Assembly (NCBI RefSeq): GCF_000743525.1
Contig: NZ_JQGK01000005.1
Span: forward strand, 62,001-126,000
Length of the DNA stretch: 64,000 nucleotides
Reading direction: 5' to 3'
From: Sulfurospirillum sp. SCADC
Lineage (GTDB): Bacteria; Campylobacterota; Campylobacteria; Campylobacterales; Sulfurospirillaceae
Below, in pieces: positions 60,520 to 64,000 of the stretch. Position 1 is the stretch's first letter; each line of letters opens with the position of its first letter. The position numbers were made by a program, and so were the translations under genes. Under the pieces are notes generated by a model, which did not search any database, was not told the DNA's origin, and was given only the letters and a program-made list of their open reading frames with translations.

Positions 60520-60541
60520 TTTAACACTAATTTAACACTTC
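60520..60541 (+). promoter_or_regulatory. Tandem TTTAACA 11-bp repeats upstream of exbB2
   Basis: TTTAACACTAA and TTTAACACTTC are direct 11-bp repeats, followed by a -10-like TATAAA at 60545-60550. The spacing suits an OmpR/PhoB-type activator. Four related repeats precede the TonB receptor at 62249. Confidence 0.6.
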
Positions 60542-60585
60542 GTCTATAAACTCACCCCTTAGGAAAATTGGGGTGAGGAGTGGGC

Positions 60586-61002
60586 ATGGAGTATCTTAAA
60601 TTTGCGATTGATTATGGCGTGTTGGGAGTTCTTTTTGCGATGAGCATCCTCTCGTGTGGGCTTTTTGTTGAGCGTGTTTTTTTCTATAAAGCGTTAGATG
60701 TTACTTCGTATAAAACCAAAAAATCATTGGAAATTGCGCTGAGCGATCATCTTACCACCATTGCGACCATCACTTCCAATGCGCCTTACATCGGGCTTTT
60801 AGGCACAGTTCTTGCGATTATGCTTACCTTTACAAATATGTCAGAACAGAGCATTGAAACGTCCAAAATTATGAGCTCACTGGCACTTGCGCTTAAAACA
60901 ACAGCCGTTGGACTGGTTGTTGCTATTGTATCGATGGTATTTAACAACATTTTAGTGCGTTACTCTGAGCGATTTTTAGCAGTGTTCGATGAAGAAATTT
61001 GA
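60586..61002 (+). CDS. exbB: ExbB-like protein, second TonB system
   Basis: 138 residues from the ATG at 60586 (GAGGAG upstream; GTG at 60580 possible). Three helices; TTIATITSNAPYIGLLGTVLAIMLTF and LALALKTTAVGLVVAIVSMVFNNI are the conserved ExbB/TolQ segments. This copy is uninterrupted, in contrast to 28526. It overlaps exbD2 by 14 bp. Confidence 0.94.
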   Translation: MEYLKFAIDYGVLGVLFAMSILSCGLFVERVFFYKALDVTSYKTKKSLEIALSDHLTTIATITSNAPYIGLLGTVLAIMLTFTNMSEQSIETSKIMSSLALALKTTAVGLVVAIVSMVFNNILVRYSERFLAVFDEEI

Positions 61003-61357
61003 TAGCATCAACGTCATCCCTTTTGTCGATATTTTGCTCGTTTTATTGACGATTGTGCTGATGACATCGACCTTTATCGCCAAAGGAATTTTGCCCATTG
61101 ATGTACCAAAATCTGCTTCAACCCAGACGCTAGAGCCTTCCAGTGTGGTTTTAAGCATTGACGAGCAGGGCGCGCTTTTTTTGGAAAAAACGCCCATCTC
61201 TCGCGAAGCACTCCAAAACCATCTTGATACCCTAACCAACGAGACGCATTTTTCGATCAACTGTGCGAAACAAGCTCCGTTTGAGTTTTTTGTGACTCTT
61301 TTGGATATGCTCAATGCGCACCATTTTAAATCGATTGATATTGTAATTGAAAAATGA
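60989..61357 (+). CDS. exbD: ExbD-like protein, second TonB system
   Basis: 122 residues. KKFDSINVIPFVDILLVLLTIVLMTSTFIAKGILPIDVP is the single membrane helix with the conserved Asp, followed by a periplasmic domain. Overlaps both neighbours by a few bases. Confidence 0.93.
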   Translation: MKKFDSINVIPFVDILLVLLTIVLMTSTFIAKGILPIDVPKSASTQTLEPSSVVLSIDEQGALFLEKTPISREALQNHLDTLTNETHFSINCAKQAPFEFFVTLLDMLNAHHFKSIDIVIEK

Positions 61358-61995
61358 GACGACTGAGTTTTGCCTTACTGCTTTCGTTGATTTTACATCT
61401 TGGGTTGCTTCTGTTTTTCATGATGTTTACACCTCAAAAGCCAAAAATTTTGGCTCAAAGTGCACCTGTTTCTCTACGAATCAGCACAGTCATTGCGCAA
61501 AGTGAAGCGCCAAAACACGAGGTACATCAGCAAGAAGCGATACCACCTGAACAGCCTGAACCAGCACCTTTAAAAAAACTTCCCAAAAAAGAGAAACCCT
61601 CCAAGCCTGTTTCCCTTCCTATGGCAAACACGGCTTTGGAAAACAACGTCTCCGCTCCTATAGCAGACGCCTCACCGCTTCTTACTCCAACACCTCAGAG
61701 TGAATCTCACAGCGAAACCCCCTCGTATTTAGACCTGCATAAAGATGAAATCGCTCAAGCGCTTCAGCGTGCCAAATCCTACCCTGAACTTGCGCGAAGA
61801 CGCTCCATTGAAGGTGTGGTGGAAGTGAGTTTTATCATCAAGCCCACAGGTGAAGTCGAAGAGGTGGAAGCCATTTCTAAAAGTCAGCTTCTAAGCAAGG
61901 CAGCCATCGAGAGTGTGCACAAAGCCAAAGGTTATTTTCCGCTTCCTTTGGAAAATGTGACGATTAAAGTGCCGATTGTTTACCGCCTAAAATAA
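61354..61995 (+). CDS. tonB: TonB-like protein, second TonB system
   Basis: 213 residues. Membrane anchor FALLLSLILHLGLLLFFMMF (contains the SxxxH-type SLILHL), Pro/Glu/Lys-rich region (residues 45-105), then the TonB C-terminal domain (ALQRAKSYPELARRRSIEGVVEVSFIIKPTGEVEEV ... KVPIVYRLK). Probably serves the receptor that follows. Confidence 0.93.
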   Translation: MRRLSFALLLSLILHLGLLLFFMMFTPQKPKILAQSAPVSLRISTVIAQSEAPKHEVHQQEAIPPEQPEPAPLKKLPKKEKPSKPVSLPMANTALENNVSAPIADASPLLTPTPQSESHSETPSYLDLHKDEIAQALQRAKSYPELARRRSIEGVVEVSFIIKPTGEVEEVEAISKSQLLSKAAIESVHKAKGYFPLPLENVTIKVPIVYRLK

Positions 61996-62161
61996 TAGAC
62001 TTCTTGCCTAACCCCTTGAAAAAAGAGTATCGCTGATAGCGCATCACTTTTTGAAACTAAAAACATCGCCATAGTTTCGGCTATGACTCAATTTTGAGTT
62101 TCAAAAATTAACGCACTCTAAACGAGCTCTTATCTTTTCAAGGGGTTAGGCAAGAAGTCTA
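61996..62161. repeat. 166-bp element with 27-bp perfect terminal inverted repeats
   Basis: Left arm 61996-62022 is the exact reverse complement of 62135-62161. Inside are TTTTTGAAACT/AGTTTCAAAAA (62048-62058 and 62097-62107) and CATAG/CTATG (62070-62074 and 62081-62085), nested to make a cruciform or a long RNA hairpin. No open frame and no clear target-site duplication. It could be a MITE-like element or a very large terminator of the tonB operon. Confidence 0.7.
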
Positions 62162-62164
62162 GTT

Positions 62165-62219
62165 TTTAACACAAATTTGACACTAATTTAACAGTGATTT
62201 AACAAAGACTTTTTATACT
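62165..62219 (+). promoter_or_regulatory. Four tandem TTTAACA-type 11-bp repeats upstream of TonB receptor 3
   Basis: TTTAACACAAA, TTTGACACTAA, TTTAACAGTGA and TTTAACAAAGA (62165-62208) run head to tail, followed by a -10-like TATACT (62214-62219). The 7+4 repeat layout resembles Pho boxes (TTAACA repeats of B. subtilis PhoP, CTGTCAT repeats of E. coli PhoB). Confidence 0.65.
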
Positions 62220-62248: not shown

Positions 62249-64000
62249 ATGAAAAGAGTTTTGGGCATTTCGTTGGTCGTATCGACGTTTTTAATGGCAG
62301 AAACAGGCGTTTTAGAAGCCATTACCGTTGAAGGTGAAACCTTCTCAAAAGAGGTCAAAAATATTAGTGGGGAAGAGCTAAAATCAGCCGATCTTGCCGA
62401 TGCACTTTCGCGCAACAGTGCATCGATTACGATGATTCGAGGCAGTGGCATTGCCAATGATATTATTTTGCGCGGGCAAAAGAGAGATAATATCAACGTT
62501 TTAATGGATGATGCCAAGATTTACGGTGCATGCCCCAATCGTATGGATCCTGCTATTACGCACATCAATGCAGACAATATTGAAAGCGTGAAAATCATTG
62601 AAGGACCTTATGATGTCGAGCATTTTGGAACATTGAGCGGTTTGGTTGTTGCTGAAACCAAAAATCCGACTAAAGAGCCAAACGGCGATGTTAATTTAGG
62701 AATCGGCAGTTACGGTTATCGTAAAGCTTCGGCTAGTGCGGGTGGTGGAAATGAGTATATTCGAGCTTTGTTTAGTGCGTCAACCGAACGAAGTGACCAG
62801 TACAAAGACGGTAACGGTGATACGTTTTATGACCAACTCGCTAAAACGACGACAGGAACTTATCAGTATAAAACAGATGATTTACGCGCCTATGAGAAAA
62901 AAACATTTATGGGAAAAGTTTTCATCACACCTGTGGAAAATCAAGAACTTCGTTTAGGCTACACGCTCAATCGTAGCGATAACGTGCTCTATCCTTCGCG
63001 TATGATGGATGCAGACTACGACGATAGTGATATTTATACCTTAGGTTACAGTCTTTACGACTTGGGAACGTTCTCTAAAGAACTTGCTTTAGAAGCATTT
63101 TATTCCACAGTAGAACACCCAATGTCGAATAAATACCGTAAAACAAGTTCGTCAACCAGCTATACGGTCAATAAACTTGAAACAGAAGTTAAAGGTGCCA
63201 AGCTTAAAAACGTGATGGATTTAGGTGGCGGAGAACTCACGTACGGTGTTGATACGAGTAAACGTAATTGGGATGGCAAGAAATATACCTATACCATTGC
63301 AACCGGAGCGGAAAGTGGTGTGACGCGAACGGGAATGCCCGATGTCGATACGACCAATCAAGCACTATTTGCCCATTACGACAAAACAATCGATCGCGTG
63401 AACGTTCAAGCAGGCGTGCGTTACGACGATACGGATATAAAAGCCCATCGTCAAGGCGTAGCAACGGTAACACGTTACGAGAACGATTATGAGGCACTTT
63501 CCGCCAATACGATTGTGACCTATAAAGCGACCGATAACGTGGACTATTTTATCGGTTTCGGTAAAGCTTCTCGTGTTCCTGATGGTAAAGAGCTTTACGG
63601 AGCGACCAAATCAACGGGTATTTTAGAACAAACGACCAATTACGAAACCGACTTGGGATTTAGAGTGCATTACGAAAACCTTGATCTAAAAGGCAAGATC
63701 TTCTATTCGGACTTGAAAGATTATATCTATTATAACGCTACAGCGCAAAAATACGTTAACGTTGATGCGACGATTTACGGAGCGACACTGGATGCTTCTT
63801 ACGATATCGCAAGGGCATGGACGCTCGGTTATGGCATGAGCTACCTGAAAGGCGAAAAAGAGACGCCACTTGCAGGACAAACCGATAAAGATTTAGCGGA
63901 CATTGTACCGCTTCGTGCCGTCACTTCACTCACATATCATGAGGGAGACCATCGTTTAAAAACGGAAGTGGTCGCGGCGAAACGTTGGGATAACGTCGAT
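62249..64000 (+). CDS. TonB-dependent receptor, OprC/copper-receptor-like, 3' end outside window
   Basis: The frame is open from the ATG at 62249 (GGGAGG upstream) to the window end, 584 codons. Signal peptide ISLVVSTFLMA, TonB-box-like AITVEGETF, plug with IIEGPYDVEHFGTLSGLVV. A conserved-looking GACPNRMDPAITHI recalls the CPNRMDP motif of OprC-type copper receptors. It follows a complete exbB-exbD-tonB set and carries tandem TTTAACA repeats in its promoter. Substrate not certain; copper or a phosphate-starvation-linked compound are options. Confidence 0.85.
   Translation, partial: MKRVLGISLVVSTFLMAETGVLEAITVEGETFSKEVKNISGEELKSADLADALSRNSASITMIRGSGIANDIILRGQKRDNINVLMDDAKIYGACPNRMDPAITHINADNIESVKIIEGPYDVEHFGTLSGLVVAETKNPTKEPNGDVNLGIGSYGYRKASASAGGGNEYIRALFSASTERSDQYKDGNGDTFYDQLAKTTTGTYQYKTDDLRAYEKKTFMGKVFITPVENQELRLGYTLNRSDNVLYPSRMMDADYDDSDIYTLGYSLYDLGTFSKELALEAFYSTVEHPMSNKYRKTSSSTSYTVNKLETEVKGAKLKNVMDLGGGELTYGVDTSKRNWDGKKYTYTIATGAESGVTRTGMPDVDTTNQALFAHYDKTIDRVNVQAGVRYDDTDIKAHRQGVATVTRYENDYEALSANTIVTYKATDNVDYFIGFGKASRVPDGKELYGATKSTGILEQTTNYETDLGFRVHYENLDLKGKIFYSDLKDYIYYNATAQKYVNVDATIYGATLDASYDIARAWTLGYGMSYLKGEKETPLAGQTDKDLADIVPLRAVTSLTYHEGDHRLKTEVVAAKRWDNVD

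Follow-up and report, generated by a model that had tools for sequence, protein, structure and literature searches.

Most of the copper two-component systems that have been described handle excess copper. In Helicobacter pylori, the copper efflux operon crdAB-czcBA goes together with the CrdRS pair. How transcription of the OprC-type copper importers of the outer membrane is controlled is poorly understood (PMC7558416); in Pseudomonas aeruginosa, OprC is controlled through copper repression and CueR (PMC7558416), and a later paper called the mechanism unknown (PMC8610252). The copper ligands of OprC are Cys143, Met147, His323 and Met325 (PMC8610252). Three further systems resemble the one considered here in their DNA sites. 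In the Pho box of PhoB, at least two direct repeats of 11 bases, seven conserved and four variable, replace the -35 element at a fixed distance from the -10 (PMC4415409). The orphan regulator HP1043/CosR of H. pylori has the site TTTAAG-N5-TTTAAG (PMC5253667), and the PCE-responsive regulator RR2 of Sulfurospirillum, a member of the OmpR family, binds direct repeats over the -35 region of organohalide genes (PMC7755780). The locus presented below shares the genus, the regulator family and this placement of direct repeats with RR2, but the RR2 word is CTATW-N17-CTATW and its genes are of another kind. In the open-licence literature we found no description of the present box or system, and we regard its novelty as provisional.

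The window analysed here is a stretch of 64 kb from Sulfurospirillum sp. SCADC (genome G000), at positions 62001-126000 of contig C5. A preliminary description of it had pointed to tandem 11-bp TTTAACA repeats, two before exbB2 and four before a TonB receptor, and both arrays were found (Table 1). The exbB2 promoter carries TTTAACA-CTAA-TTTAACA; the receptor promoter carries TTTAACA, TTTGACA, TTTAACA and TTTAACA, beginning at positions 62165, 62176, 62187 and 62198, and the period is 11 bases in both. Each array was said to end just before a -10 element, and a -10-like hexamer does begin after exactly nine bases in both promoters. The remark that there is no separate -35 element is uninformative here, because S. 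multivorans and C. jejuni promoters have a poorly conserved -35 in any case (PMC7755780). When TTTAACA-N4-TTTAACA was searched in the window with no or one mismatch, only the exbB2 and receptor promoters matched; at least one further TonB receptor encoded in the window lies outside these matches.

Table 1. Positions of the boxes, promoter elements and genes of the second TonB system in the window
Feature	Position	Strand	Basis
Box 1, TTTAACA-N4-TTTAACA, upstream of exbB2	60520..60537	+	sequence; kept before exbB2 in G001, G006, G007 and G012
-10 TAAACT, 9 bases 3' of box 1	60547..60552	+	N9-YAnnnT spacing, as in receptor promoters
Box 2, four 11-base repeats upstream of the copper receptor	62165..62204	+	last two repeats are the conserved core
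-10 TATACT, 9 bases 3' of box 2	62214..62219	+	sequence, N9 spacing
exbB2, start GTG 60580 or ATG 60586	60580..61002	+	TIGR02805 exbB2, 123 bits, slightly below cut-off
exbD2	60989..61357	+	TIGR02804 ExbD_2, best match, 105 bits, below cut-off of 123
tonB2	61354..61995	+	TIGR01352 tonB_Cterm, above cut-off
Predicted OprC-like TonB-dependent copper receptor	62249..64000, extends to contig position 126234	+	TIGR01778, OprC match, copper motifs

We also noticed a 165-base element between tonB2 and the receptor promoter (window positions 61997-62160), bounded by 33-nt near-perfect terminal inverted repeats (94%). It is absent from the same gap in the close relatives L041, L044 and L047, and its arm had no match in any other locus fetched. 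It has the look of a small MITE-like mobile element that inserted here.

Within its own genome the pattern is only weakly enriched: with no or one mismatch and the -10 left out, 11 matches were obtained, compared with 7 for the reversed control. Over the genus (24 genomes), the exact pattern was matched 39 times and its reversed control 5 times. With the -10 included, as WTTAACA-N4-WTTAACA-N9-YAnnnT, a search of 397 genomes from the phylum gave about 201 exact matches against 11 for the reversed control (table summed by hand). It is conservation that carries the case for a box above chance, the excess in the own genome being modest. In all 16 receptor orthologs of the genus (51-100% identity, G000 included), at least 12 of the 14 box positions are kept at the same place and the rest of the intergenic region diverges; the repeats are the most deeply conserved feature of the exbB2 and receptor promoters.

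Similarly, a search with the receptor alignment A1 led to 80 named loci, in which W was allowed at the first base and at least 12 of 14 positions were required. The box was present upstream of 59 of the 63 Campylobacterota receptors, compared with none of the 15 gammaproteobacterial receptors and 24 of the 450 other genes of the same loci (Fisher P about 1e-12 and 1e-52, respectively, values which are indicative because the loci are related and non-independent). The seven perfect matches in this background turned out to precede three NosL genes, two response-regulator genes and two further TonB receptors, and TonB was likewise among the top background matches. The consensus of 72 Campylobacterota receptor promoters was aWTTAACAcwnaWTTAACA-N9-TAtAaT, or in short form aWTTAACA-N4-WTTAACA-N9-TAnnnT; the second base of the -10 was A in 96% and the last base T in 96% of them, and the spacing of nine bases was found in 53 of the 72. 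Direct repeats of 11 bases at a fixed distance from the -10, with the -35 replaced, are the arrangement of an OmpR/PhoB-type regulon. Taken together, these comparisons indicate that the repeats form a genuine DNA switch, spread over the phylum, before genes of predicted copper import, and they support the earlier proposal of a response-regulator box whose regulon includes the second TonB system and the receptor.

To what extent the receptor resembles a copper importer can be seen from its matches. Its best NCBIfam model was TonB-copper (TIGR01778), which with 203 bits against a cut-off of 472 was not passed; it would thus be a divergent branch with TonB-copper as the closest named family, and we call it OprC-like. 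Among PDB entries OprC was the best and only strong match (E 5.6e-27), and the C-PNR-M and H-x-M motifs of the receptor were aligned to the OprC copper ligands. CxxxM is encoded at 62531-62545 and HxM at 63116-63124, and C99..M103 and H294..M296 were invariant in all ten Campylobacterota orthologs aligned. The CPNRMDP motif had been called unexpected in a receptor under phosphate control; by this alignment it is the CxxxM half of an OprC copper site whose HxM half is also present, and a copper regulon predicts such a motif. OprC and NosA of Pseudomonas share this site and the overall sequence with the receptor, whereas the two-component-type box is found here and not with the gammaproteobacterial homologs in our set.

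The genes that carry the box were examined in 30 loci fetched from the search of 397 genomes, and copper genes made up most of them: those for TonB receptors, OprC-like or of a second type, for NosL, small NosL-like proteins and ExbB, and the response-regulator gene itself. Six further ones encode what we take to be PCuAC-like chaperones, from a SAAFM...VELHTH pattern rather than from a domain search. Copper uptake and chaperone functions, assigned by similarity, thus dominate, as they should in a copper-limitation regulon. In G000, perfect boxes precede exbB2, the receptor, a double-NosL gene (C8:94325), the response-regulator gene on contig C1 and an oxidase-like gene (C17:84606), and boxes with one mismatch precede DUF4405 genes at C8:99105 and C22:18240. 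Two DUF4405 membrane proteins with a box each were seen at L036 8318-9321 and L033 12575-13084, one of them with an EF-hand partner. The oxidase-like gene (L035 10031-12571) encodes a fusion of a bd-oxidase-like subunit with a cytochrome c domain. Induction of a copper-free oxidase by copper shortage would make sense, and its box may be owned by the neighbouring response regulator C17:79460. Three of the 30 loci were secG, where the box is probably a look-alike site of another regulator, possibly of the HP1043/CosR type. The secG promoters of L292, L294 and L299, as well as that of G000 (C13:76890-76922, L284), have this look-alike TTTAAC box with the same spacing.

No box was found at the metal efflux operon on contig C21 of G000. 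This operon (L137 5510-15079; FixH-like, outer-membrane factor, HlyD and CusA-type genes) adjoins a CrdRS-like response regulator and kinase. As in CrdRS (PMC9927306), an OmpR-family regulator and a kinase of the same phylum would be tied to copper in the system proposed here; the difference is that CrdRS serves efflux under excess copper and this one uptake, with a regulator from another branch. A cluster of the mcc-type sulfite reductase (L031 13172 to L032 7947; C5:131171-145946) lies just 3' of the window, 5 kb downstream of the copper receptor, and contains its own response regulator and kinase, a double-NosL protein and an FtsX-type ABC transporter. An MccA/sulfite regulon was considered, but its site at C5:133274 has no -10 at nine bases and was taken as chance.

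In Sulfurovum and other genera, an OmpR-family response regulator and a short kinase are encoded with the receptor or exbB, upstream of TonB and the receptor and in one direction. When an alignment of such linked regulators (A2) was searched against G000, the best match was the response regulator at C17:60220-60873 with 274 bits, the next reaching 231. It groups with the receptor-linked regulators in a tree, where the node that joins them has a support of 89/89 and the wider clade one of 100/99, and it was the only one of the 30 best own-genome matches with the recognition-helix signature G[SA][ILV]RVY[IV]. A box was located within 3.3 kb of the best regulator in 7 of 24 genomes picked by the box pattern alone, where about 0.18 was expected. 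The usual gene order is regulator-kinase-box followed by exbB or the receptor; it was seen with exbB or TonB in L335, L333, L344 and L346, and L347 has the order box-regulator-kinase. Since L346 reads pyrC-regulator-kinase-box-exbB and G000 pyrC-regulator-kinase, the two arrangements can be joined. The regulator gene itself is preceded by a box in L175, L219 and L319 and by a version with 11-12 of 14 positions in G002, G003, G015 and G020; the C17:60220 gene of G000 has no box of its own.

All 24 Sulfurospirillum genomes contain a regulator of the C17:60220 type, including those that lack the receptor or exact boxes, so its presence or absence is uninformative for singling it out in the genus. 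The same comparison within families was discarded because most of them carry the clade, and only the contrast with the two largest families, f2 and f3, helps: no such regulator above paralog level was found in the nine genomes tested from them, and about 13 of their 220 genomes have a box compared with about 95 of 177 elsewhere (counted by hand). The kinase has a HATPase_c domain in Pfam, with HisKA passing its cut-off in L196 but not in G000, the phosphoacceptor motif HELNIP, and two predicted membrane helices joined by a loop of about ten residues. In this loop there is no conserved Cys, His or Met, and the kinase shows no obvious copper-sensing motif. The protein is similar to intramembrane-sensing kinases and may therefore sense copper by an indirect route. 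A receiver and winged-helix regulator with its kinase is thus genetically linked to the box, and the pair of the C17:60220 regulator and the two-helix histidine kinase is the likely reader.

On the whole we think it probable that copper acquisition throughout the Campylobacterota is controlled by one two-component system of the OmpR family, with the repeats as its operator. Bound to the tandem WTTAACA-N4 units as a dimer in head-to-tail orientation, or in larger number on four repeats, the regulator would occupy about -39 to -22 as counted from the presumed start and would contact RNA polymerase. It would activate exbB2-exbD2-tonB2, the OprC-like receptor and NosL-type copper chaperones, and in other genera also PCuAC chaperones and its own gene. 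The fixed distance of nine bases to the -10 argues for activation, and together with the position and the 11-base period it fits class-II activation as by PhoB, in agreement with the activation layout suggested earlier. Since the targets serve uptake or encode chaperones, and no box stands at the efflux operon on C21, copper shortage is the expected signal; it would most likely be perceived as low available copper through the short kinase, which has no metal-binding sensor domain. It is rather unlikely that the same system instead represses the uptake genes under copper excess. The box does cover the -35 region, where it could block the polymerase, and both OprC and NosA are copper-repressed in pseudomonads (PMC7558416; PMC8610252), but a spacing this rigid across the phylum fits polymerase contact better than steric blocking, and at nosZ, a gene for which blocking is plausible, the box is inverted and differently placed.

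A further question is which regulator would read the box in G000 itself. That a paralog controls it in place of C17:60220, either the C1:282948 system or MccR of the sulfite cluster, seems improbable to us. The C1 regulator belongs to the same clade and has a box before its own gene, which had suggested it as the main regulator, but it is missing from G001, G005, G012, G017 and G023, which retain receptor boxes; its recognition helix differs, and its own box is yTTAACA-N4-rTTAACA. MccR is encoded close to the receptor, as given above, but the mccA site lacks the correctly spaced -10. The C1 regulator promoter carries the related box on both strands, and paralogous regulators probably use near-identical boxes. 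Some boxes of G000 (those of the C1 regulator, the C17 oxidase-like gene and the DUF4405 genes) may belong to paralogs, and such regulators (C1, perhaps C17:79460) may own some non-copper sites. At the C1 locus (L034 8502-10985), small DUF1104-like proteins that have Gly-rich tails flank a fast-evolving regulator and a kinase with CDRGMC on its periplasmic side; in many orthologs the shared promoter has TTAACA repeats on both of its strands.

It is very unlikely that the box is read by an orphan regulator of the HP1043/CosR type. Its site has the same period and a similar word with a TTTAA core (PMC5253667), it occurs in the same phylum, and a look-alike box precedes secG in several genomes. 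In our box, however, the sixth base is C in 94-96% of the units at the position of the G that is critical in HP1043 sites, so that TTTAAG hexamers five bases apart with a conserved G were not what we found. The box is also nearly absent from f2 and f3, the regulon is narrow and concerned with copper, and at copper genes there is physical linkage between the box and a regulator that has a kinase gene of its own.

A phosphate regulon of the PhoB/PhosR type, which the preliminary description had favoured for its likeness to Pho boxes, is scarcely credible: the 7+4 repeat geometry is shared (PMC4415409) and the candidate regulator scores on PhoB-like NCBIfam models, below all cut-offs and like other OmpR-family regulators, but no site with at least 12 of 14 positions was found upstream of pstS in the pstSCAB operon promoter (G000, L149), no Pho gene is among the listed box genes, which are copper genes, and the word is nearer to TTTAAG-N5-TTTAAG of HP1043 (PMC5253667) than to Pho boxes, CTGTCAT among them (PMC4415409).

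Another gene that may bear on the role of the copper system is nosZ. In eight Sulfurospirillum nos loci, the box upstream of nosZ was found inverted and on the 3' side of a conserved -10 of the TATTATAGAAT type, where it would be well placed for blocking. This suggests repression of nosZ in these relatives, where the regulator on the inverted box would block the copper-hungry N2O reductase. No match to nosZ was obtained in G000, an empty answer being weak evidence, and the regulon would there serve other copper proteins. In the nos clusters of relatives (L124, L125, L126, L128 and L129), nosZ is immediately preceded by a PilJ/NarX-like kinase and a divergent response regulator, and its -35 has a AGCGACTNAAAAGAAAC block that is strongly conserved. 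This nosZ-adjacent pair was rejected as the regulator of the box since it was found only beside nosZ, while G000 keeps boxes with no nosZ match. An Rfam scan of the nosZ leaders gave nothing.

With the operator defined, the regulator pair named and its targets listed, the sensing of copper limitation becomes testable across a whole phylum, one that includes N2O consumers in which copper supply sets the activity of nosZ. More tentatively, a single copper-starvation system, whose kinase has only two helices and a loop of some ten residues in place of a metal sensor domain, might turn on TonB-dependent copper import and chaperones throughout the phylum and block nosZ at the same time. If this is true, copper shortage would directly shut down N2O consumption, as a copper-sparing circuit.
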